64,000 nucleotides of DNA from Chiridota heheva. Taxonomy: Eukaryota > Echinodermata > Holothuroidea > Apodida > Chiridotidae. The stretch covers positions 442,001 through 506,000 of the forward strand of contig JAIGNY010000176.1 in NCBI GenBank assembly GCA_020152595.1, in the 5' to 3' direction. A program made the position numbers and the translations under genes. Under the pieces are notes generated by a model. The model was not told the origin of the DNA. It saw only the letters and a list, made by a program, of their open reading frames with translations, and did not search any database. Shown here piece after piece: positions 7,851 through 49,945 of the stretch (position 1 is the first letter of the stretch; each line of letters begins with the position of its first letter).

Positions 7851-7889
7851 AAGCCATGAAAATAGCTTAGTACCCAGTTAGCTTTATGC

Positions 7890-8765
7890 AACCTCAATAC
7901 CCCCTGCCCTACTCAATCTTAATTCGCCACCTGTCCTGGCCTCACCCTCTCCTGGTCTCACCCTCTCCTCAAGGCTACCTGACATAACCTCTATCTACTC
8001 TGCTGAAGCAAAGGTCATTCTCCTGGCCTTAAACTTCATGGAACTCTCCTTCCACCCCCATTTTGTAATCTTCTCTGACCATAAATCCATACTCACTGGC
8101 ATCCTCAACATGCTCTGGCCCAACCCTCTCATTTTACAAATCCTCAACAAACTTCATTCTTTCCTCTTGGGGAAGAAAATTATCTTTTTCTGGATCCCCA
8201 GCCACATCAGCATCCCTGGCAATGAGAGAGCTGACAGAGCCACCCACAAAGCTCTGTCAAATAACATTTCTCCTTTTCTAATTCCGCACTCAGACCTTTG
8301 TCTCTCCATCTCCAATTACATCAGTAAAACCCAGCAAGACTCCTGGAATCATGAAACTAGTAACAAACTTCACACCATCAAACCCAAACTTGGGACCAAC
8401 ACCCCCCGCACAGTCGCAATTGCAGGGAAGACGTTGTCACCTGCATCCTCCTCTGTCACTTCCCTCTCACCCACTCCCACCTCCTTTCCGACTCCCCTGC
8501 AACACCGAACGCTCCATCAAGCATATCCTTTTAACTTGTTCCCTATACATGTACCTGAACTCCAGGTCTCTTCCTCACCCACCTCAATCTCGGATCTATT
8601 AAAAAACAATCCTTTCTCCAACATTTTCCCAAATTCACCCTAGTTTCCCTCTTTTCTCCCTCTTAATCCTCCATATCCTCCCTGCCTAAACTCTTACACC
8701 CTAATTTTGTAATCACCCTGTTGGCACATTTGACTCTGACTGTCGCGGTGCCTTTAAACATCAAC
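7890..8765 (+). pseudogene. Non-LTR retrotransposon 3' fragment with RNase H domain
   Basis: The 8038-8643 frame carries the second half of a LINE-type RNase H: an Asp-containing FSDHKSILTGI block near residue 12, then IIFFWIPSHISIPGNERADR near residues 48-67, with the conserved His and Asp. It continues into the basic, Trp-containing C-terminal region of I/Jockey-type ORF2 proteins. After about 8400 the frame drifts and shifts occur. It is C-rich on this strand, unlike its surroundings, as is the 5' piece at 11.5-13.7 kb. It probably comes from the same element family. The reverse transcriptase itself is not in this piece. Confidence 0.85.
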
Positions 8766-8789: not shown

Positions 8790-11005
8790 TGATATGCTGA
8801 TGTGTATTAATGAAGTTTATTATTGATGTAGATTTATGTTGTGTATTACTGGTGTGTATTGATATGATGGTGTGTATTACTGGTGTGTATTGATATGATG
8901 GTGTGTATTACTGGTGTGTATTGATATGATGGTGTGTATTACTGGTGTGTATTGATATGATGGTGTGTATTACTGGTGTGTATTGGTATGATGGTGTGTA
9001 TTACTGGTGTGTATTGATATGATGGTGTGTATTACTGGTGTGTATTGATATGATGGTGTGTATTACTGGTGTGTATTGGTATGATGGTGTGTATTACTGG
9101 TGTGTATTGATATGATGGTGTATATTACTGGTGTGTATTGATATGATGGTGTGTATTACTGGTGTGTGTATTGATATGATGGTGTGTATTACTGGTGTAT
9201 TGTATTGATATGATGGTGTGTATTACTGGTGTGTATTGATATGATGGTGTGTATTACTGGTGTGTATATGATGGTGTGTATTACTGGTGTGTAATTATAT
9301 GATGGTGTGTATTACTGGTGTGTATTGATATGATGGTGTGTATTACTGGTGTGTATTGTATGATGGTGTGTATTACTGGTGTGTATTGGTATGATGGTGT
9401 GTATTACTGGTGTGTATTGATATGATGGTGTGTATTACTGGTGTGTATTGGTATGATGGTGTGTATTACTGTGTGTATTGATATGATGGTGTGTATTACT
9501 GGTGTGTATTGATATGATGGTGTGTATTACTGGTGTGTATTGATATGATGGTGTGTATTACTGGTGTGTATTGATATGATGGTGTGTATTACTGGTGTGT
9601 ATTGGTATGATGGTGTGTATTACTGGTGTGTATTGATATGATGGTGTGTATTACTGGTGTGTATTGATATGATGGTGTGTATTACTGGTGTGTATTGATA
9701 TGATGGTGTGTATTACTGGTGTGTATTGATATGATGGTGTGTATTACTGGTATGTATTGATATGATGGTGTGTATTACTGGTGTGTATTGGTATGATGGT
9801 GTGTATTACTGGTGTGTATTGATATGATGTGTGTATTACTGGTGTGTATTGATATGATGGTGTGTATTACTGGTGTGTATTGATATGATGGTGTGTATTA
9901 CTGGTGTGTATTGATATGATGGTGTGTATTACTGGTGTGTATTGATATGATGGTGTGTATTACTGGTGTGTATTGGTATGATGGTGTGTATTACTGGTGT
10001 GTATTGATATGATGGTGTGTATTACTGGTGTGTATTGATATGATGGTGTGTATTACTGGTGTGTATTGATATGATGGTGTGTATTACTGGTGTGTATTGA
10101 TATGATGGTGTGTATTACTGGTGTGTATTGGTATGATGGTGTGTATTACTGGTGTGTATTGATATGATGGTGTGTATTACTGGTGTGTATTGATATGATG
10201 GTTTGTATTACTGGTGTGTATTGATATGATGGTGTGTATTACTGGTGTGTATTGGTATGATGGTATGTATTACTGGTGTGTATTGGTATGATGGTGTGTA
10301 TTACTGGTGTGTATTGGTATGATGGTGTGTATTACTGGTGTGTATTGATATGATGGTGTGTATTACTGGTGTGTATTGATATGATGGTGTGTATTACTGG
10401 TGTGTATTGATATGATGGTGTGTATTACTGGTGTGTATTGGTATGATGTTGTGTATTACTGGTGTGTATTGGTATGATGGTGTGTATTACTGGTGTGTAT
10501 TGGTATGATGGTGTGTATTACTGGTGTGTATTGATATGATGGTGTGTATTACTGGTGTGTATTGATATGATGGTGTGTATTACTGGTGTGTATTGATATG
10601 ATGGTGTGTATCACTGGTGTGTATTGGTATGATGGTGTGTATTACTGGTGTGTATTGATATGATGGTGTGTATTACTGGTGTGTATTGATATGATGGTGT
10701 GTATTACTGGTGTGTATTGATATGATGGTGTGTATTACTGGTGTGTATTGGTATGATGTTGTGTATTACTGGTGTGTATTGGTATGATGGTGTGTATTAC
10801 TGGTGTGTATTGGTATGATGGTGTGTATTACTGGTGTGTATTGATATGATGGTGTGTATTACTGGTGTGTATTGATATGATGGTGTGTATTACTGGTGTG
10901 TATTGATATGATGGTGTGTATCACTGGTGTGTATTGATATGATGGTGTGTATGACTGGTGTGTATTGATATGATGGTGTGTATTACTGTTGTGTATGATG
11001 TTCAT
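8790..11005. repeat. 31-bp minisatellite, about 71 copies, with 310-bp higher-order structure
   Basis: The unit is two related half-units: GTGTGTATTACTG (13) plus GTGTGTATTGATATGATG (18). Units differ mainly at one A/G position (TATTGATATG or TATTGGTATG). Rare variants recur exactly 310 bases apart: GTATGATGTT at 10441 and 10751, and TCACTGGTGT at 10611 and 10921. This shows a recent duplication of a ten-unit block. The array separates the two LINE fragments. Confidence 0.97.
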
Positions 11006-12749: not shown

Positions 12750-13730
12750 ACAGACCTCCTTATGGCATGCAACACAAACAATTACAATAACACCCACATT
12801 ATACAATGGAACATCAGGAGCCTTAAGGCCAATTCAGAAGAAATTGACCTACTGGCCACCACCTTCAACCCGGTTGTCTTCTGCCTACAAGAAACCTTAA
12901 AAACCACTGACCATTATTCCCCTAATAACTTCTCTTGCTACCATAAACATCAAGAGGATGCCGACAGGGCCTGTGGGGCGTGTCCATTCTCGTTAGAAAC
13001 GATATCCCACACAGCCCTATTCATGTGAACACTAACCTTTAGGCCATCTTTATGTCTATCTCCCTCCACAAAACCTTCATTCTTTGCAATATTTATCCCC
13101 CTCCAACGCCAACATTCAGCCTACCAACAACCTCATCTCTCAGCTCCCCTCCCCTTTCATCCTTCTTAGTGACTTCAACGCCCACAACCTGGTGTGGGGC
13201 TTCAATACCACCACCCTCAGAGGCAAGCTCATCGAGAACACTCTTCGACAGCACAGCCTCTCCTTGCTCAACGCTAACTCCCCGACCTACCTTTACCCTG
13301 CCACAGGCTCCTCCTCACCTGTATTGACCTGTCTATCTGTTTCCCCAACCTTCTTGATTTTAGGTGGAAGGTCACTGCTGATCTCTGTGGTAGTGACCAT
13401 TACCTTCTTCTAATTCACTCCAACCTTCAAACCCCACAGAAAACACCCCCAATTGAACCTGAAGAAGGCTGACTGGCCCCTTTTCAAAACCATCTGTGAC
13501 TCTTGACCTTCCCCCCATCTCCTCGAGGGTGAGGATCCCATGTCAACTTTAGTAACATCCTTATCAACATCGCCAGCTGCTCCATTCCTAAAACCCCCTA
13601 ACCACCCCCAACTCCTGGTTCACCAATGACTGCAAAACTGCCATCAAGAACAGGAAAAAGGGCCCTCAGGAACTTCAAAACAAACCTAACCATCCACAAC
13701 CTGGTGCCGTTAAGCCCTGTGTATGACTTC
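12750..13730 (+). pseudogene. I/Jockey-like non-LTR ORF2 endonuclease domain relic
   Basis: The segment starting at 12762 reads IIQWNIRSLKANSEEIDLL then VVFCLQETLK. These are the Asn and Glu blocks of an apurinic-like LINE endonuclease. A second frame (13084 on) gives ILLSDFNAHNLVWG, the GDFNAH catalytic block, then a PTYLYPATGSSS region and a partly shifted SDH-type end (GSDHYLLLIHS across frames near 13390). It ends near 13730 before any reverse transcriptase. It follows the ORF1 relic in the correct order and orientation. Frame breaks near 13028 and 13330 show it is dead. Confidence 0.88.
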
Positions 13731-14093: not shown

Positions 14094-14232
14094 AGTAAAT
14101 ACTGCACTTACTAAGGGCTTTGAGAAGGATGTGGGAAGCAGAACGTCTTTCTATTGTTTCACCATGATAACATTATCCAATACATTGGCAGGAAGTAGGA
14201 AATTTGGTTTTAGATCTCCACCATACCAGGAA
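14094..14232 (+). CDS. ST6GALNAC1/2-like: ST6GalNAc-1/2-like sialyltransferase, exon with end of sialylmotif L
   Basis: This is an internal exon of a GT29 Golgi sialyltransferase that adds sialic acid in alpha-2,6 linkage to GalNAc of O-glycans. A pyrimidine-rich acceptor ends TATGTCTAG at 14093 and the donor is GAA|GTAAGT at 14232/14233. The exon carries one base of a preceding codon, then 46 codons. The peptide starts VNTALTKGFEKDVGSRTSFY, which matches the downstream end of sialylmotif L in ST6GalNAc-1/2 proteins (the family pattern is LNGA..KGYE.DVGT.TSFYGFT). The exon ends in phase 0. The preceding exon, with the N-terminal part of motif L and the membrane anchor, was not found in 1-14093, so it is probably upstream. 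The reading frame would close three codons into the intron, supporting the donor site. Confidence 0.92.
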
Positions 14233-28709: not shown

Positions 28710-28813
28710 GGAATCAGGTACCTTTTTTTTGCTGATAATTTGTGGACGTATACTTATCTGGGAGCTACATTTGCTGGGGAGACATTACCTAGAAGCACAG
28801 ATAAGTATCACAG
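28710..28813 (+). CDS. ST6GALNAC1/2-like: ST6GalNAc-1/2-like sialyltransferase, inter-motif exon
   Basis: The acceptor is TTCTTGAAG at 28709 and the donor is CACAG|GTAAAC at 28813/28814. The exon starts in phase 0, continuing directly from the exon ending at 14232, and ends with two bases of an Arg codon. The peptide begins GIRYLFFADNLWTYTYLGAT, corresponding to the VRYLHFLE..RDYEWLEAL segment that follows motif L in ST6GalNAc-1/2 proteins. The intron before it is about 14.5 kb and full of repeats. An alternative frame across the exon also stays open, but only this frame joins both neighbours in phase and matches the family. Confidence 0.88.
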
Positions 28814-29143: not shown

Positions 29144-29227
29144 GTCACCAATGAAGTTTCCTGTGAAGTTGACACCAGACATCGTTAAAATAATTCATCC
29201 AGATTTTGAAAGATATCTAAAATGGAG
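29144..29227 (+). CDS. ST6GALNAC1/2-like: ST6GalNAc-1/2-like sialyltransferase, pre-motif S exon
   Basis: A polypyrimidine acceptor (TTTTTCTTTTAG, 29143) and a GGAG|GTAAAA donor (29227/29228) bound 84 bases in phase with both neighbours. The peptide includes KFPVKLTPDIVKIIHPDFER and ends YLKW plus a split Ser/Arg codon. The HPDF.RY block is typical of the segment just before sialylmotif S in ST6GalNAc-1/2 (LLHPDFLRY-type). The intron upstream is only 330 bases. Confidence 0.92.
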
Positions 29228-30895: not shown

Positions 30896-30986
30896 CTGGG
30901 TAAACTCCACCCACCAACACAAGGATATCCACCGACCGACAACCGGAGCGATCATGTTGTTAGCAGCTCTCCACACCTGTGACGAG
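30896..30986 (+). CDS. ST6GALNAC1/2-like: ST6GalNAc-1/2-like sialyltransferase, sialylmotif S exon
   Basis: The acceptor is GTCACCATAG at 30895 and the donor is GACGAG|GTACCT at 30986/30987. One base completes the split codon, then 30 codons follow, ending in phase 0. The peptide includes HRPTTGAIMLLAALHTCDE, the core of sialylmotif S that binds donor and acceptor; the remaining YGF part is encoded by the next exon. The RPTTGA form and LAALHTCD are diagnostic of the ST6GalNAc-1/2 branch. A VNSTH sequon just before the motif is a possible N-glycosylation site. Two downstream exons (39678 and 49631) can both be joined to this donor in frame. Confidence 0.96.
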
Positions 30987-38540: not shown

Positions 38541-39677
38541 AAGGTGTGTTATCAGAGCTGTAAGGAGATTCATATAGTTTGTGATTTCTAGTTATATTAT
38601 CAATTGCACTTGTTATTACTAATTTTCTCACCCTACTTGCAAAATACAATTTTTGAGATGATATCGCTTCTTGGCTTGCTAATCTGAAATCCCTTCCCAG
38701 CATCGTTTTCTCACTAAAGCTTTTTCTTTGGGGCAAAGAAAAAGTTGATGTGGCAAATTTCCTTAACAGCAAAATGCATGTTGTGCATGGCACTGCAGAA
38801 CATTTAACTATGTGCAGCCTTAAATTCTTTATAAGTCACTATGCCGGAGTTTGTAGTGGGGTGTGGAGGGGGTTTGCTCTCTTGCCCAAGGGCTCGACAA
38901 ATCACCTAAGTGGGATAATTAAAAAGTATACGGCACCCACCCAGCAATTAAAAATCAAATGCTCTCCGGTAGTGCACCACTTTGACAAAATTTAAGGCAG
39001 TAAAAATAAAAGCAAGCTAGCAGGATTTAAATTACATGGTCCCACATGCAAGCAAAAGAATTTATGAGGTCTATTTTGGTAGCTAACAACAAGTCAAATA
39101 TAGAGCTCTACTCTAAAGGGCAGATGCAAAATTAGAGTTTGGAATAAAAATGGAAGTATCTTTTGAGCTTAAATCAGATGCACAAGAAGTTTCAAGCTTC
39201 TAGAGTAAAATCACAATTTTCAAAGCTAAACATTCTTGGAAGTTTTAACTTACAATTTGTACTGGTCAGATAACCAGTCTATACAAAATGATGGTTTTGG
39301 AAAAGATGTACACTTGGGACAACAAATTGCAATTTTCTGAAAGGTAAAGATGTCTAGGGCTTAATCCGGAATTCAAGTTAATTGTATTATACACAAAGGT
39401 TTTCACTTTTAGTCTAATGAATACCAGTCATTTCTAGTACACAAATCTGTTCTTGGTTTAAGCTTTATTATCCTCTCAATGGGATACAAAAATTGTTCTT
39501 TTTGTTTCTATTCTTAAAGAGAAGTTGATCTATTTAATAATTCTTACATGGGGTTGACTCCATGTCCACTGTCACTAACAGCTTGCAAAACTCATTTTCA
39601 TACTTGCCATTATTCAGACTCACTATGTGTTCTTTTTTTCTCTTTCCATATCTATGCCATCCCCATTCCATTCGCAG

Positions 39678-39854
39678 GTTAGCGTCTATGGATTTGGAGG
39701 GAGTTTCAAAAAATTCTCAGATCATTATTATGATAAAACTTTTAGCAGTCATTTGAGTTTTATGAATCATGATGATAACCAGGAGCAAGCTCTGTGGTAT
39801 TTGCTCGATAGTGAGAAGATTATCTCTCTTTACAAGAGGGACAAAAGGTACTAG
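39678..39854 (+). CDS. ST6GALNAC1/2-like: ST6GalNAc-1/2-like sialyltransferase, proximal terminal exon
   Basis: The acceptor CCATTCGCAG ends at 39677. The exon starts in phase 0 and encodes 58 residues to a TAG stop. It completes sialylmotif S with VSVYGFGGS, then gives motif III SDHYYD (about residues 14-19) and motif VS NHDDNQE (about residues 30-36) with the catalytic-type His, ending EKIISLYKRDKRY. This is the arrangement at the C-terminus of ST6GalNAc-1/2. It is about 60% identical to the exon at 49631 over 55 aligned positions. No AATAAA or ATTAAA was seen in the roughly 650 bases after the stop. An intron of 8.7 kb separates it from the motif S exon. Confidence 0.93.
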   Translation, partial: VSVYGFGGSFKKFSDHYYDKTFSSHLSFMNHDDNQEQALWYLLDSEKIISLYKRDKRY

Positions 39855-39929
39855 GACAGTTTTCTTTACCTTTATTCTTCTAAAGAGTTTGTTATTTTAA
39901 TGAGTCACCCGTTTCTATCTCATGAATTA

Positions 39930-40380
39930 TTTGGTGACTAATTAATGTTATGCGGAGCATTTGGCTACTAATTAATGTTATGCGGAGTATTTGGCTACTA
40001 ATTATTGTTATGCAGAGCATTTGTCAACTTTTTTCATGTTTGGGTTTATTTGTTTATTGATTTAATTCTAGTATTTGCAGGGCCTTCGGCCTGCGACTTA
40101 ACATGAAAATTGTTTTAAAACTAAAATCATGCAATACTACAGTAGTAACTACCAAGAAGATTAAGTGTGTATGGACATGTAGAGAATTTTTATTAACCAA
40201 AAAGAGCTTTAAATTCTGAACAGAGTAGTCTTCAAATTATGACAAAGGGATGAAAATTACTATATAAAAACACTTGCAAAGACTCTTACAAGAACAAATT
40301 ACTATATGAAAACACTTGCAAAGAACAAATTACTATATGAAAACACTTGCAAAGACTCTTACAAGAACAAATTTGACACT
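39930..40380. repeat. Two short tandem arrays after the proximal terminal exon
   Basis: Three copies of a 33-base unit (GGCTACTAATTAATGTTATG) lie at 39930-40025. Three partial copies of an ACTATATGAAAACACTTGCA unit lie at 40257-40370. They occupy what would be the 3' untranslated region if the proximal exon is terminal. 40380-41400 shows no gene. Confidence 0.88.
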
Positions 40381-41410
40381 TCAAAAATTGGGTAAACACA
40401 AACCCTTCAATTGATCAAAAAGGTGCAAGGTGTCACTAACCAAAAGGGGCATTTATGGAATGAAGGGCACTTAAGTGCAGGTTTGAATTAGGCACTTTGA
40501 AGGCAGGTTTGAGGGCACTTGAAATGTAAATAAGGGAATAATCAATACAACAAGAAGTGTCCCTGCATCTTGGGGCTCTGTAATCAGCATGAAAAGAAGG
40601 CCAAATAGTTTTAAAAAGTGTGTTGTTGTGAACAAAATGTACAAAAGGGGCAGCAGGGTGGAGGCAATGAGGGGCACGGTGGAAAACCCCTCTGAAAAAG
40701 TGAAACTGAGGGCCAGCAACATAACTCTGGACTGGATAAACTGTTTGAGAGCCAAAAAGCAATTACTTTTTCTCAGGTCAGCATGTTGAGCAGAACAAGT
40801 CTGTAAATAGTCACAATAGCACTTATAGTTTTTAAGTGACAACAAATTAAAAGTGTGTAGAATTTTTCAGCATGCAGAAAAGTGATGGATGTATGAACAG
40901 GAATACTGCTAAAATGATGTAATGTAGTTCTTTATATTTCCCAAATTTTAGATATCAAAGGTTCCAAATTGCCTTCCACTACTTAATCTACATCAAGGGT
41001 ATAATAATATCCATTTTCCTGTGCACTATAGCCAAATTCTCCCATTCAAAATATTATGGGGGGAAGGACTGAGAAACAATAGTTAGCATGAGCAATTTTG
41101 TAGTTGTCCCATTCTGAGGTCACAAAAAACTGCACAATTTATGCTAATTAGGTCAGTTTTAAAATGCTGTAAAATTGTAAATTTTTAGCTGATTTTGATG
41201 GGACTTTTGGTAGATTTGAAACTGCACTTCAGATCAATGAAAGTTTTGTAACACCAGTATTAATATAGTTCCTGTTAAATAACATGCACTTCTATTATGG
41301 GAATGTTCATTGGGTATGGATTTAACTAAGCTTTACACTTTCAGCATTTTTTGATATATTTTTTTAAATATTTTCATTCCTTTTTTTTTTTGATTTTCAT
41401 TTCATTTTTT

Positions 41411-42290
41411 GATTCGATGTGATAGCATAGGAACCTACTGTATGTAGTTATGCTGGGATGTGTATGTATGTATGGTATGTATGGGTGTACATGCATGTGT
41501 GTCTGTGACAGAGGCCTGTAAACACAATATCTCAAGATGTGGTGGATTTATATCATACTTGGTATATGGATGTGTTGTGGTCTGTAGTAATCCCTATTGT
41601 TTTTAGTGCTGATGTCGTGAATATTAATTAGTAGGCGGGACTAAATGTAAAATTCTGTTAACAAGCTTGTAAGCATGATATCTCAAGAACTGTGTGCTTG
41701 GATGTATGTCCTACTTGGTATATGGATGTGTTGTGGTCTGTAGATAATCCCTTTATTTTTGGTGCTGATGTCATGAATATTAATTAGTATGCGGGGAAAT
41801 GTAAATTTTTGTTAACAAGCTTGTAAACAAGATATCTCAAGATCATTAAGGTGGATTTGTGCCATGCTTGGTATTTGGGTGTGTTGTGGTCTGTAGAGAA
41901 TCCATATTGTTTTTGGTTCTGATATCATACATATTAATGAGAGGGCGGGATTAATTGTGAAATTCTGTTTGTGCTCATATTTCCACAAACCAATGTCAGA
42001 TTTAAATCAAACTTTGTATGATGCTGTTGATAAAAGCAAGGATGATACAGGATCCCACAGAATGTTGAGTTGTTGACTTAATCATTATTTATGTCAGGTG
42101 GAGGGAGCCAAATACAATTTGTCATTGGTTGTTGTGATTGTGGCTTATAGCTAAAGTCAAAAACCTTAGCACTTAAACAAGCAAAGAAATATACACTATC
42201 AAATGTACCAGTATAATGAATAAACTAAACGTGTAAGAATACAACATGTAAAGATATACTATAAAAGGGAAAAAATGGTTCTAATCCAAA
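41411..42290. repeat. Dispersed GGTTCCGATG repeat family copy
   Basis: It starts TTGATTCGATGTGATAGC and contains three tandem subunits (about 41510, 41660, 41815), followed by the unique tail with CCACAAACCAATGTCAGA and GATGATACAGGATCCC. This copy shows the uninterrupted form of the site that is split by the 5-kb insertion at 19291/24306. Confidence 0.87.
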
Positions 42291-42600
42291 GTTAAGTTTA
42301 AGTTTAGGTTTATTACACTTATATGGCGCATATATAACTTATTCTAATGCGCCTTACAAAATATACATATAAAGAAAATAAATACAAATGTGTAAATAAG
42401 ATAAGCATGAAATATAAAAGAAAAAAGAACACAAAAATGATGAAGAGGACTTAAAAGCACAATTAAATAAGTAAGTCTTAAGCAAGGTGTGGAATTGTTT
42501 AAGGGATTGAGCAGATTTGATTTAAAGAGGTAAGTCATTCCAAAGTTTTGGGCCAAAAAAGTTAGCATCGGAACACGTGATTCGTCACTCTGGCAGTAGA
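42290..42600. repeat. Possible dispersed repeat with GGCGCATAT word
   Basis: Starts AAGTTTAAGTTTAGGTTTAT and includes TTATATGGCGCATATATAAC and AATGCGCCTTACAAAATA. It looks like a transposable-element end often found near FGPKLWN-type frames. The 42344-42568 minus frame reads LAQNFGMTYLF, which may be a decayed trace of one. The call is tentative. 42600-44200 holds nothing I can identify. Confidence 0.4.
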
Positions 42601-44210
42601 TTTTAAAACAAAACTATTCCTTCAAACAAACAAAATAGTTTGTCAGTGAAGTTGAAATTATGGAGAACAAAATTGATTACACCATTTTAATATTTTTATT
42701 GTAAAAAGTTGCAAACGTTGAAATAAATATAATCCAGCGCTTGAAATTGTGGATGCAATTTGTCACATCCCTCAATTTTCATCAAGAGTTTTAAAAAATG
42801 TATCAAATCCTGATTGATGTTGGTTGTTAGTTCAGCGCTGGATGAACCTAATGGTTGCATGCTACCAGCAGAATAGGCATTTCGTATATCATTACAGCCC
42901 ATTATAATTTGAATAAAAGAAACGTTTGGTCGAAAAGAGAAAGCCCTTTTTTTCTTTCGTTTTTTCTCAGTAATTTTGGAATAATAAGCTCTTTTTAGAT
43001 TCAAAAAAAGAATGATTCCAGTATTCACTAGAAATGAATATGGTTGATTTGAACATATTAAAGATTATCAGTATCATCACATATTAAGAAAAGTGTTTTC
43101 AAATTTTTAGTGATTCAAGAATGATACGTCATTACATTTCGGCTGAGTGCTCATTGAATTGAAGATCAGGTTGTTTGTGAGACAATGTGCATATATTTTA
43201 TTCCACATTTTGACAGTCTTTTGTTTTCATATCTCAATTCTAGACACTCACTGATATCATGCATTTTGAATTTCCATGAAATTCCCCTATCCTTTGCATG
43301 CATTATGTACTGTTTGAATCGGACCCATTTTGCTTCTTCAGTCCAGGAGCATGCCTAATAACAGAAACTTGTACTTTTGAAGTCATGCAGCTGGATTGTT
43401 CAGATATTACAATCAACTTTCATTGTTTCTGATTTCATTCTTTGAATTATTCAATGGGAACCTCAAAAATATTATTTAAAAAAACATTTGAATTTTCAAA
43501 ATGACTGTTTCATGCCTAAAAACCTACAGTAGTTGTATTGTCTTGTTGTTTCCATCTAATATTTCGATAACTACTTGATAAGCATATAAAAATGAAGTGG
43601 AAAGTATTTAGCGATGACAGTAATGAAGGTATTTCATGACTTCTAATTTTCCCCATGTATGCAAAGATACTTTTTGCAGACGTATTTCAAATTTGAAATA
43701 TAACATTGCCCAAAGTTTTAATGTTAGGATAGCAAAGGATCATGGTAAATATCACAAAATGGCAGTTTCCATATACTAAAATGTTCCTCATTTTAGGAAC
43801 ATTTGGGTTCCTATTAACAGGCATACTCCTGGGCTGTTTATGAGCCTGCAATTTCATGTCATTTTCATGATCTTCATTCACTGTGCAACATGTTTAACCC
43901 CTTCAATGATGTTATAGTGGTGTTTGTGATTGAAGAGGAAATTTTTGTTTGACTAATACAGGCATAAACTCATGCCTGTTTTTGCTTTAATATTCTTACA
44001 TGCCGATGATGTATCACTTATCCTACTATCAACCCATCTTTAGCAGGGTAAGAGCTGTTTAGTGGATAGGTTGTAGTAACTCTTATGCATGCCATTTCAA
44101 AGTGTTTCCCCCCTGTTCTTTTGCATGCAATACTTTTTTCTTGCATTTTTGCATGTGAACTTCTGACAGTTATTACCTCCCACTTAAAAAGTTAATCAGT
44201 TTTTGACCTC

Positions 44211-44918
44211 TGATGGGGAGTGCTTGATGGATGGGGAGTGCTTGATGGATGGGGAGTGCTTGATGGATGGGGAGTGCTTGATGGATGGGGAGTGCTTGAT
44301 GGATGGGGAGTGCTTGATGGATGGGGAGTGCTTGATGGATGGGGAGTGCTTGATGGATGGGGAGTGCTTGATGGATGGGCAGTGCTTGATGGATGGGCAG
44401 TGCTTGATGGATGGGCAGTGCTTGATGGATGGGCAGTGCTTGATGGATGGGGAGTGCTTGATGGATGGGGAGTGCTTGATGGATGGGGAGTGCTTGATGG
44501 ATGGGGAGTGCTTGATGGATGGGCAGTGCTTGATGGATGGGCAGTGCTTGATGGATGGGGAGTGCTTGATGGATGGGCAGTGCTTGATGGATGGGCAGTG
44601 CTTGATGGATGGGCAGTGCTTGATGGATGGGCAGTGCTTGATGGATGGGCAGTGCTTGATGGATGGGCAGTGCTTGATGGATGGATGGGCAGTGCTTGAT
44701 GGATGGGCAGTGCTTGATGGATGGGCAGTGCTTGATGGATGGGCAGTGCTTGATGGATGGGCAGTGCTTGATGGATGGGCAGTGCTTGATGGATGGGGAG
44801 TGCTTGATGGATGGGGAGTGCTTGATGGATGGGCAGTGCTTGATGGATGGGGAGTGCTTGATGGATGGGGAGTGCTTGATGGATGGGGAGTGCTTGATGG
44901 ATGGGGAGTGCTTGATGG
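44211..44918. repeat. 18-bp minisatellite, 39 copies, two unit types
   Basis: The unit is GGGGAGTGCTTGATGGAT or GGGCAGTGCTTGATGGAT. The unit order from the left is 9 G-type, 4 C, 4 G, 2 C, 1 G, 12 C, 2 G, 1 C and 4 G, with a 4-base GGAT insertion inside the long C block near 44680. The unit is a multiple of three and lacks stops in two frames, so a 243-residue frame runs through it. I regard that as a by-product. Confidence 0.98.
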
Positions 44919-44929
44919 CTATAATTGTG

Positions 44930-45889
44930 GATAGTAATATTCCAATTGGTTAATGCTCAACAATGAATTCATGCCCTGCAAGGAAACCCACACAGTTAAC
45001 TTTCTGGCCTGTAAGAACATCAAAACAATTTATTTCTGGCTTGATGGGATTTCATATTGCCTAGAAGGAACTTGGAACAATTATTGTTTTGCCTTGGTGG
45101 CAAGAGAAAACTAAGGTTTAACTCACTATGACATGGAACAGAAGGAAGATAACCCCAATGCCATGAGAATACAAGTCAGAGAGATAGATTTAAAGATAGA
45201 TTAGAATTTGGGAGATGCCAATTGGTAGACTCCGGATTTATTTTGTCCAGGGTTGATTGTTTTGGGGATAATAATAATGAAAACCTGTTATGTGCCGGTA
45301 TCATCCAAGAGATGCCCATGGTGCAGCGACACAATGCAAAAAGATATAAGAACCAAATATTAACAAGAATAACCTTTAAAGAAAGTTATGGATGGGGTTA
45401 TGCAATAACAAGGTGCAATATCTTGGGTACACATTCTACTGAGTACTTTCTATGTATTGAAGGAATTGTCTTCATAAGATTATATTTCTCAAATATTTCA
45501 AACATTCTTTTTTTATCTTTCATTTTAAATATTTCATTATTAGAAAAAAAAATTCAGTAAGAATTGAACTTGTTGATTTTGCAGTATGTCTAATTTACCA
45601 CAGACTCTAAACAATTTGAACAGCTGCTTTTTTTGTTAGTTAAACTTATTCATTTACTTACCAAAGAATTGAAATAATTAAATTTACTAAGCTGTCAAAT
45701 CTGGTGAAATTTTACCTCTTTGATTGTACAGGCCCATCAAATAGAATGATATTAGTTAGTAGGTATTGTGTGGTATGCAAACTAAAAATAGTGGTATGTA
45801 AATTGAAAAGTGCTATGCAAAGGGAAAAGAGTGGCATGCACATTTAAAGAATGGTTTGCAAATTAAAAAGAATGGTGTGCAGTGAAAAA

Positions 45890-45890
<1 letters not shown>
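44930..45890. other. No gene seen
   Basis: Intron sequence. A 112-residue frame at 45222-45560 has no family resemblance and ends in a Phe/Ile/Ser-rich A+T stretch. Short GGCATGCA/GGTATGCA words repeat near 45770-45880. Confidence 0.5.
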
Positions 45891-46090
<200 letters not shown>

Positions 46091-46754
46091 AGGAAACGAA
46101 ATATTTATCAAGAATAATTGAAAAAATGATTGAAAAGTTTCCTGCAGATCAAGTTCTTGCAGACTGGTTGCTGTTTCCTTGTTGTATATTTCATTTGCAC
46201 GAATTGAACTAAGATTTAAATAGAAAATATGATTGTATCAATTTGAATCTGTAATATTTAAGCCATTAAGTGTGTAGGTGGTTTGCATGTGTGAGTTATC
46301 CTTATAATCTTTACCCATATTATATTATCCTCAACTTTAGTTGCTTGCTTGATTAATTCATTTCAATCCCCCCCTCTCCCCATCTACATACACACAATCA
46401 ACTTATCCTTGATATACAGTATCTCAGGCAGCTATGTAAGTTTAGGTGTGTGTAATACAATGGAAAAGTTAGTAGTGTCAGTATGTTGCCCCCTTGGCAT
46501 TCTAAGGGACAGAGTCCCAGGTTGTAGAGTGTCCTTAAAGACAAAGGTGTTCAATGAAGAAATAGGGAGTTGCAAATTGTCAACAGCAAAATGGGTGATA
46601 ATCTGGTTTTTGAGGGTTTTATTTGCTTTTCAAAATTGTTAAAGTATGATGGGTCACCCTTTTCATAAAATCCTGGATCAGCTTTGAAGAGCTGTGTAAT
46701 CAATTATGGATTAGCAAAATAACTTCATTTTTACAAGAATCTCTCAGGCCCTGA

Positions 46755-49280
46755 TAGACTGACAAGTTACCAATAGATTTACAAGTTGGTATTAGACTTA
46801 CAAGTTATCGATAGACTTACAGGTTATCAATGGATGCACAAGTAACTGATAGACTTACAAGTTATTGAGAGACGTACAAGTAATTGATTGACTTACAAGT
46901 TATCGAGAGACATACAAGTAACTGATAGACTGACAAGTTATCGAGAGACGTACAAGTAACTGATAGACTTGCAAGTTACTATTAGACTTGCAAGTTATTG
47001 ATAGACTTACAAATTACTGATAGACTTACAAGTTATCGAGAGACATACAAGTAACTGATAGACTTACAAGTTATCGAGAGACATACAAGTAACTGATAGA
47101 CTTACAAGTTATCGAGAGACATACAAGTAACTGATAGACTGACAAGTTATCGATAGACTTACAAGTAACTGATAGACTTGCAAGTTATCGAGAGATGTAC
47201 AAGTAACTGATAGACTTACAAGTAACTCGTAAACTTCCAAGTTACTATTGGACTTACAGGTTATTGATAGACTTACAAGTTACTGATAGGCTTACAAGTT
47301 ACTGATAGACTTACAAGTTACTGATAGACTTGCAAGTTATTGATAGACTTACAAATTACTGATAGACTTACAAGTTATCGAGAGACATACAAGTAACTGA
47401 TAGACTTACAAGTTATCGAGAGACATACAAGTAACTGATAGACTGACAAGTTATCGATAGACTTACAAGTAACTGATAGACTTGCAAGTTATCGAGAGAT
47501 GTACAAGTAACTGATAGACTTACAAGTAACTCGTAAACTTCCAAGTTACTATTGGACTTACAGGTTATTGATAGACTTACAAGTTACTGATAGGCTTACA
47601 AGTTACTGATAGACTTACAAGTTACTGATAGACTTACTAGTTACTGTTAGACTTACAAGTTATTGATAAACTTACAAGTTACTGATAGACTTACAAGTAA
47701 CTCATAGACTTACAAGTTATTGATAGACTTACAAGTTACTATTAGACTTACAAGTTATCGATAGACTTACAAGTTATTGATAGACTTACAAGTTAATGAT
47801 AGACTTACAAGTTACTGATAGACTTACAAGTTACTGATAGACTTACAAGTTACTGATAGACTTACAAGTTACTGATAGACTTACATGTTATCGATAGACT
47901 TACAAGGTACTGATAGACTAACAAGTTATCGATCTGCAAGTTATCGATAGACTCACAAGTTGCTGATAGACATACAAGTAACTCATACACTAACAAGTTA
48001 TCGAGAGATGTACAAGTTACTGATAGACTTAAAAGTTATTAAGAGACGTACAAGTAACTGATTGACTTACAAGTTACTGATAGACTTACAAGTTATCGAT
48101 AGACTTACAAGTAAATGATTGACTTACAAGTTATCAAGAGACGTACAAGTAACTGATTGACTTACAAGTTACTGATAAACTTACAAGTTACTGATAGACT
48201 TACAAGTTACTGATAGACTTACAAGTTATCGAGAGACATACAAGTAACTGATAGACTTAGAAGTTATCAAGAGACATACAAGTAACTGATAGACTTGCAA
48301 GTTATTGATGGACTTACAAGTAACTTATAGACTTACAAGTTACTGATAGACTTACAAGTTATCGAGAGAAATACATGTAACTGATAGACTTACAAGTTAT
48401 CAAGAGACGTACAAGTATCTGATTGACTTACAAGTTACTGATAGACTTACAAGTTATTGAGAGACGTACAAGTAACTGATTGACTTACAAGTTATTGATA
48501 GACTTACATGTTATCGATAGACTTACAAGTTACTGATAGACTTACAAGTTATCGAGAGATGTACAAGTAACTGATTGACTTACAAGTTATTAAGAGACGT
48601 ACAAGTAACTGATTGACTTACAAGTTACAGATAGACTTACAAGTTACTGATAGACTTACAAGTTATTGATAGACTTACAAGTTATCGAGAGACATACAAG
48701 TAACTGATAGACTTACAAGTTATCGATAGACTTACAAGTTAATGATAGACTTGCAAGTTATTGATGGACTTACAGGTAACTGATAAACTTACAAGTTATC
48801 AAGAGACATACAAGTAACTGATAGACTTACAAGTTATCGATAGACTTACAAGTTAATGATAGACTTTCAAGTTACTGATAGACTTACAAGTTACTGATAG
48901 ACTTACAAGTTACTGATAGACTTACAAGTTACTGATAGACTTACATGTTATCGATAGGCTTACAAGGTACTGATAGACTAACAAGTTATTGACCTGCAAG
49001 TTATCGATAGACTTACAAGTTACTGATAGACTTACAAGTTATTGATAGACTTACAAGTTATCGAGAGACATACAAGTAACTGATAGACTTACAAGTTATC
49101 GATGGACTTACAGGTACAGTAACTGATAGACTTACAAGTTATCGATAGACTTACAAGTTACTGATAGACTTACAAGTTATCGAGAGACATACAAGTAACT
49201 GATAGACTTACAAGTTATCAAGAGACGTACAAGTAACTGATAGACTTACAAGTTACTGATAGACTTACAAGATATTGATA
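46755..49280. repeat. 19-bp satellite, about 130 copies, with higher-order repeats
   Basis: The unit is GACTTACAAGTTACTGATA with frequent variants (TTATCGATA, GAGAGACATACAAGTAACT). Rare variants show block duplication: TAACTCGTAAACTTCCAAG at about 47223 and 47527, 304 bases apart (16 units). ACATGTTATCGATAG plus the GGTACTGATAGACTAACAAG block at 47883 recurs at 48943. The array ends about 350 bases before the distal terminal exon. 46100-46740 holds no gene that I can see. Confidence 0.97.
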
Positions 49281-49630
49281 GCACTTCATCGAGCATGAGA
49301 TCTGGTCACTTTTCGTGAAGAAAAAAAAAGGAAGCGCCCTAGAAACTAGTGTCCAAGATTTGCACAGTATGTTGAACTCTATCTCATGTACTGATATCTA
49401 AAGTTTAACATCCAGCCAGTTGTGCATAATTATGAGGAATATGATATTAAAACTTGTAAACAATTTGATCATTTTCAGATTTAAACCTGCAGTTGAATCA
49501 TGTTTTAGATTTTGGAAAATGAACAAAGTGACTGAAGTTGGCCTTAAAAGTTATGGTTGTGAAAGAGAAATCACTTCATGCTTTATAAAGTAATGCATTG
49601 TTTGTTTGTTTGTTTTTTTGCTCCAATCAG

Positions 49631-49798
49631 GTAAATGCATATGGATTTGGAGGGAGCTGGGCAAAATACTCGGACCACTACTATGAAAAACAGTATAAGA
49701 AAAAAGTACATTATGCAAACCACGACGACAACTCGGAAATGAAATTGTGGCATCTTTTGAACGAGGAGAAGATCATCAGCTTGTATACAAGAGACTGA
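49631..49798 (+). CDS. ST6GALNAC1/2-like: ST6GalNAc-1/2-like sialyltransferase, distal terminal exon
   Basis: The T-rich acceptor GCTCCAATCAG ends at 49630. The exon starts in phase 0 and encodes 55 residues to a TGA. It completes motif S with VNAYGFGGS, then gives motif III SDHYYE and motif VS NHDDNSE, and ends EKIISLYTRD. Key residues match the proximal exon (39678), but the stretches between motifs differ strongly: this exon has KQYKKKVHYA where the proximal one has KTFSSHLSFM, so it is far more basic. It can be spliced to the motif S exon at 30986 in frame. An AATAAA lies 142 bases after the stop. No second copy of the upstream exons was found between 39.9 and 49.6 kb. Confidence 0.93.
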   Translation, partial: VNAYGFGGSWAKYSDHYYEKQYKKKVHYANHDDNSEMKLWHLLNEEKIISLYTRD

Positions 49799-49939: not shown

Positions 49940-49945
49940 AATAAA
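49940..49945 (+). promoter_or_regulatory. Poly(A) signal AATAAA of the distal terminal exon
   Basis: Canonical hexamer in CCAATAAAAATACG, 142 bases after the distal stop codon, followed within 40 bases by a T/G-containing stretch. It suggests a short 3' untranslated region of about 160 bases. Confidence 0.7.

Follow-up and report, generated by a model that had tools for sequence, protein, structure and literature searches.

The 64,000-nucleotide stretch of the Chiridota heheva genome analysed here (contig C168, C168:442001-506000; hereafter the window, whose own positions are used unless a contig is named) is spanned by a single sialyltransferase gene of the ST6GalNAc1/2 type (family GT29) on the + strand. 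It was found that two homologous terminal exons, A and B, stand behind one set of upstream exons, and on balance we consider it probable that they are alternative last exons by which an ST6GalNAc1/2-like gene swaps motifs III and VS. In this arrangement the exons through sialylmotif S (donor at 30986) would be common to both transcripts, which would end via either A (39678) or B (49631); the enzyme would keep its donor-binding half with motif L and exchange the C-terminal half, in which motifs III and VS lie. The genome assembly comprises 1.10 Gb in 3744 contigs. The exons lie in the order L, M1, M2, M3, S and then A or B:

~C168:441505-441685, + strand: motif L exon, just upstream of the window (PF00777, 51.9 bits at C168:441579-441686)
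14094-14232, + strand: coding exon M1, end of the motif L region (RVNTALTKGFEKDVGSRTSFYCF...), by tblastn, splice sites and phase; open in both paralogs described below
28710-28813, + strand: coding exon M2 (GIRYLFFADNLWTYTYLGATF...), by DNA kept in the C58 paralog, splice sites and frame joins
29144-29227, + strand: coding exon M3 (SPMKFPVKLTPDIVKIIHPDFERYLKW), by tblastn, splice sites and frame joins
30896-30986, + strand: coding exon S, sialylmotif S to ...HTCDE (PF00777, 29.2 bits), with a phase-0 donor GAG/GTACCT common to both endings
39678-39854, + strand: terminal exon A, motif III (DHYY) and motif VS (HDDNQE), 58 residues, stop TAG, by AG acceptor in phase 0, PF00777 and tblastn
49631-49798, + strand: terminal exon B, motif III (DHYY) and motif VS (HDDNSE), 55 residues, stop TGA, by AG acceptor in phase 0, PF00777 and tblastn

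The original prediction, made from the letters of the window, had described two intact phase-0 terminal exons, each with its own motifs III and VS, and this was confirmed at the positions above, with both frames open to their stops. Exons S, A and B each exceeded the curated cut-off of Pfam PF00777 (GT29; 23 bits) when scored alone, A with 27.9 bits and B with 28.1 bits over the last 53 profile positions. Because A and B were identical at 33 of 55 aligned residues (60%, tblastn E-value ~2e-22), as had been counted before, their likeness is beyond chance. The catalytic-type positions were indeed kept; both exons have DHYY as motif III and follow the pattern HDDNxE in motif VS. Between these motifs A carries the segment DKTFSSHLSFMN and B the segment EKQYKKKVHYAN, in agreement with the neutral and basic character earlier ascribed to them. 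KKK was also present between motifs III and VS in the endings of both paralogs, so the neutral/basic contrast sets A apart from the B type. The acceptor tracts of the two exons were similar, with 13 of 17 pyrimidines each.

All internal exons were bordered by AG/GT, exons L through S joined in one open frame, and the donor at 30986 (CDE/V, phase 0) joined in frame with either A or B. The spliced translation and its alignment to the structure 6apj (human ST6GALNAC2) exhibited sialylmotifs L, S, III and VS in this order, and the cysteines of motifs L and S were present; the motifs are named as is usual for the GT29 family. When the spliced proteins were searched against the PDB, with 8 sequences matched per search, gene body plus A and gene body plus B aligned along human ST6GALNAC2 at 207 and 214 bits, respectively, and the next-best match was ST3Gal1, with 90 and 87 bits. 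Human ST6GALNAC2 was thus the best solved relative across the compared region with either ending, and the motif order L, S, III, VS is the same in vertebrate ST6GALNAC1/2. With either ending, the part of the protein that runs from motif L to the C-terminus is predicted to be complete and of the ST6GalNAc1/2 type. Exon M2 was unmatched among the tblastn matches listed for a human query fragment. The intron beside the S donor exhibited no special conservation, with 83-88% identity over 60 nucleotides compared with 78-90% at the other donors.

When the peptides of the gene's own exons L, M1, M2, M3 and S were searched against the window by tblastn (E-values up to 1), M1, M2, M3 and S were each matched once at 100%, and L had no match within the window. 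No second copy of any upstream exon was found by this search between 30987 and 49630, which bore out the earlier claim that none lies between A and B. Three weak matches were left over: a partial M1 match at 46310-46375 (22 residues, 50%, E-value 0.032) that was devoid of the KGFEKDVGSRTSFY core, and two 9-residue M3 matches between the S donor and B (E-values 0.30 and 0.79). They are taken as chance. Further exons of the upstream types form another set ~40 kb downstream of B on the same contig, and this set has a terminal exon of its own. The possibility that another gene is concealed between the two endings was considered and found to be unsupported, M1, M2, M3 and S being single-copy in the window.

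The same search bears on another origin of the pair, in which A and B would be the endings of two ancient tandem genes that were fused by deletion of the upstream exons of the second gene and now serve as two endings. Tandem gene copies do exist on this contig, and in a blastn comparison of the window with contig C58 (which carries a paralog, see below) A was matched only within the B-type exon (50 nucleotides, 39687-39736). No clear remnant of an upstream exon was seen between A and B, and we regard such a fusion as improbable. As synonymous sites of A and B are saturated (see below), the flanks of a plainly duplicated exon would also have diverged, and duplication and fusion are indistinguishable here. 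The original prediction of alternative C-terminal halves is partly supported, namely as to one gene, two intact homologous endings, kept catalytic-type residues and the lack of upstream exons between the endings in the search above; long-term constraint on the pair also speaks for it, and use of both exons, their mutual exclusion and an altered specificity are what it would further predict.

A whole-genome scan with the PF00777 profile gave 66 matches from 87 candidates. Two close paralogs, and a part of the last intron that distinguishes the window gene from one of them, are the following:

C168:531.3-566.4 kb: gene 2, a tandem paralog, with motif L at 531.4 kb, motif S at 563.6 kb and its ending at 566261-566428
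C58:709.8-730.6 kb: C58 paralog, on another contig, colinear with the window gene, with its ending at C58:730444
38946-45332, + strand: 6.4-kb last-intron block containing A, absent from the C58 paralog, by blastn colinearity

In both paralogs all six compared exons were open, in the same frames and colinear with those of the window gene. The body protein was 91% identical to that of the window gene in gene 2 and 83% in the C58 paralog, and 28 of 30 and 24 of 30 residues of exon S were kept, respectively. The paralog endings were closer to B (78% for C58, 69% for gene 2) than to A (54% and 52%). No match to A was found in the full last intron of either paralog (E-values up to 0.01). A genome search with A gave 8 matches, namely A itself, three B-type exons, the relic that lies behind gene 2, and three GT29 exons that are more distant; no further A-type exon was found in the assembly by this search. 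Because the paralogs have B-type endings and lack A, the gene body with B appears to be the common form, and A an additional terminal exon that lies in the last intron of the window gene only. At the edges of the 6.4-kb block, window positions 38945 and 45333 correspond to C58 positions only 2 bp apart, with ~55 bp of unmatched C58 sequence slightly further on. An explanation of the copies as haplotypes or assembly duplicates was rejected, because the C58 paralog and gene 2 differed by ~20% in alignable introns and the dS (synonymous divergence) of the bodies was 0.19-0.27.

Two further observations were made at the end of gene 2. Its ending reads SEYYY, with a Tyr in place of the motif III His that is present in A, B and the C58 paralog. 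At 1.4 kb behind that ending (C168:567836-567931) stands a terminal exon of B-like sequence that is truncated and interrupted by an in-frame TAG; it was closest to B (81 of 96 nucleotides, compared with 76 for the C58 ending and 68 for gene 2's own) and appears to be a decayed second ending.

The divergence of A and B was far larger than that of the gene copies. Pairwise comparison of the three gene bodies (198-199 codons) gave the dS range above and nonsynonymous divergence (dN) values of 0.045-0.098. Between A and B, differences were counted at 26.5 of 27.5 synonymous sites and at 41.5 of 137.5 nonsynonymous sites (30%), and between A and any B-type exon at 24.8-26.5 of 27.3-28.0 synonymous and 41.5-44.5 of ~137 nonsynonymous sites. 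The dN/dS comparison of the two exons that had been proposed as a check thus showed silent sites randomised and amino acids kept. Near-complete synonymous divergence implies that A and B parted long before the gene copies did, and the two exons are best read as an ancient pair, much older than the paralogs and under purifying selection on average. Codon maximum likelihood (ML) on the four terminal exons under a two-ratio model (A branch vs B-type exons; log likelihood, lnL, -555.97) gave an omega (dN/dS) of 0.042 on the A branch, averaged over a very long, saturated branch whose length was at the set bound, and of 0.905 within the B-type exons. The lnL was -567.90 with one ratio and -573.72 with omega of A fixed at 1, a cost of 17.8 units.

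The main rival to alternative endings holds that A is a recently silenced leftover of an ancient second ending and that B alone ends the enzyme. Neutral survival of A was simulated from the present-day exon, with intactness defined as an open frame plus seven key residues chosen by us, and with neutral time since the paralog split taken as half the body dS (d of 0.10-0.13 per lineage). The probability that A would be intact if neutral over this time was 0.05-0.10 when insertions and deletions were left out and 0.004-0.025 when they amounted to 10-15% of substitutions, and at d of 0.20 it was about 1% or less. Survival since the paralog split (0.4-10%) would thus be improbable, and the frame, the acceptor and all motif residues of A are intact, which argues against silencing. 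A shorter neutral time fits an intact A, the probability at d of 0.05 being 0.12-0.31; terminal-exon decay is seen in this genome, in the truncated exon with an in-frame TAG behind gene 2; and the absence of A from the last introns of the paralogs, like the lack of a nearby canonical poly(A) hexamer, is what silencing would lead one to expect. Altogether we judge a silenced A unlikely.

Several points weigh against two endings in use. Two paralogs manage without A. No AATAAA or ATTAAA was found behind A until an ATTAAA at +991 from its stop. A lies in a repeat-rich intron, with dispersed repeats from ~0.3 kb past its stop. The low omega on the A branch says little about recent selection. When terminal exons were placed in a tree, from 11 rows and 56 columns, none of the 8 inner branches was starred, and A, B and the paralogs fell in one open fork with the endings from C2066 and C2589 and two human rows; the great age of A is concluded from synonymous saturation, not from this tree.

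The missing hexamer near A is a weak sign, because the single-ending C58 paralog also had no AATAAA or ATTAAA to +1500; gene 2 had an ATTAAA at +331. For the same reason it was dropped as proof of a dead A. Behind B, a likely poly(A) signal was found:

49940-49945, + strand: AATAAA, 141 nucleotides past the B stop, likely to direct polyadenylation after B

These 3' ends would also be explained if A were a cassette exon, spliced from an AG/GT at 39847/39848 to B at 49631, so that A gave the C-terminus and B only the 3' untranslated region (UTR) and poly(A) site. The AG/GT lies just inside the A stop, and the junction, read by eye, gives ...KRDKR followed by TAA; a canonical hexamer would then be needed only behind B, where AATAAA stands at +141. 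An AG/GT can readily occur by chance close to a stop codon, the donor AAG/GTACTA is weak by consensus, and no other support for such splicing was found, so we consider a cassette role of A very improbable.

The flanks of A were compared with the whole genome. The 732 nucleotides upstream of A had no other genome match (1 candidate), and the dispersed repeats behind it are these:

~40147-40248: dispersed repeat, ~39 or more other places among the 40 candidates scored of 736
40394-40720: dispersed repeat, ~39 or more other places among the 40 candidates scored of 2127
40780-41223: dispersed repeat, ~39 or more other places among the 40 candidates scored of 5728

As repeats stand so close behind A, it may have arrived with repeat-rich DNA. 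The stretches compared at both ends of the 6.4-kb block had nothing in common longer than 31 nucleotides. Transport of A by a mobile element was not supported, given the single match of the 732 nucleotides upstream and the lack of any other A copy found.

Returning to alternative last exons as the preferred explanation, both endings would be transcribed and the choice between them would be exclusive; if A is cleaved and polyadenylated past its own stop, the A/B choice would be exclusive by itself. The ancestral gene would already have had A, which the paralogs would then have lost. The bodies of gene 2 and the window gene are the most alike, so that A, if ancestral, must have been lost twice, once in gene 2 and once in the C58 paralog; if A was gained instead, its donor gene must since have disappeared. 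Ancestral presence followed by loss is tentatively favoured over gain.

The two products would differ in acceptor preference or regulation. According to passages of PMC8433944, motif L chiefly binds the donor, motifs S, III and VS bind the acceptor or both substrates, and the acceptor-binding regions of GT29 enzymes are strikingly different. On these grounds one may reasonably guess at a changed acceptor, and altered acceptor preference would be the likeliest effect of the A/B swap. A further step, which we put forward tentatively as a possibility, is that the two interchangeable acceptor-side halves have been kept since far before the paralogs and that splicing sets which glycoprotein is sialylated, in a manner resembling pipe of Drosophila (see below) and possibly echinoderm-wide. 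If so, the terminal exons may form an evolving specificity module, as the omega of ~2.3 for the gene 2 ending, from a post hoc split, would suggest.

The underlying rates were as follows. Within the B-type endings, omega was 0.93 for the terminal exon compared with 0.36 for the body (p 6e-5). The raised value was confined to the gene 2 branch (2.28, from a post hoc split and not compared with 1), and B and the C58 ending together gave 0.47; fast evolution of all B-type endings was accordingly rejected, B and C58 being ordinary. When the gene 2 branch was left free in the four-exon model, lnL was -562.88 compared with -567.90 for one ratio, with omega of 12.2 on a very short branch. Fisher tests on NG86 counts gave p values of 0.002 for B and gene 2, 0.44 for B and C58, and 0.30 for gene 2 and C58.

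The nearest known case is Drosophila pipe (pip), which codes for a sulfotransferase. Its terminal exons encode variants of the C-terminal part of the catalytic domain, and a 2009 paper, by its title, reports distinct functional specificities of the pipe isoforms. Vertebrate ST6GALNAC1 and ST6GALNAC2 are not known to us to have alternative C-terminal exons that bear motifs III and VS. In the passages of PMC9013439 that concern pipe, its terminal exons are mutually exclusive, as proposed here; pipe, however, belongs to an unrelated enzyme family and has eight terminal-exon clusters, whereas two exons are present here. The same passages place pip among UTR examples and speak of 3'-UTRs, whereas both exons are coding in the sialyltransferase gene. 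Tandem exon duplication is described there in general as giving homologous exons of the same gene, exactly one of which enters each transcript (PMC9013439). Unlike in the general case of mutually exclusive exons, the pair is terminal here, and exclusion could stem from the choice of 3' end instead of competing internal splice sites.

In the parts of the open-licence literature that were searched, also for echinoderm sialyltransferases, no sialyltransferase was found whose last or terminal exons are alternative or that has mutually exclusive exons, and excerpts of PMC10225777 report that the history of ST6GALNAC in deuterostomes is not yet reconstructed. Alternative terminal exons are already known as a kind; we know of no precedent for them in the sialyltransferase family. 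Use of both endings would mean that a single gene yields two sialyltransferases alike in their donor site and unlike on the acceptor side, and would amount to a natural exchange experiment on the determinants of GT29 acceptor choice. The principle of pipe, that the last exon picks specificity, would then extend to echinoderm sialylation, and counts of sialyltransferase genes would underestimate the enzyme repertoire.

Other features were noted in the window and assembly. Fragments of retroelement proteins (RNase H and endonuclease-reverse transcriptase) lie in the intron before M1, at 7882-8643 and 13036-13413. Tandem arrays were found at 46751-49286 (19-nucleotide units), 8836-10996 (31 nucleotides) and 44212-44918 (18 nucleotides); the 19-nucleotide array measures 2.5 kb in the window gene, and only ~0.23 kb was matched in the last intron of the C58 paralog. 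A GFWPF/GFYPF-like stretch was present in 14 of the 19 GT29 endings read from the assembly. We take this stretch to be ST8Sia-like, and on that motif the ST8Sia-like group looks expanded in the assembly. A search with mitochondrial COX1 as a guide to the phylum gave no match. A Bindin-family exon, which we take as a sign of an echinoderm genome, was also observed at C2691:815819-816001 (PF02084, E-value 7e-34); bindin marks sea urchins and sea stars.

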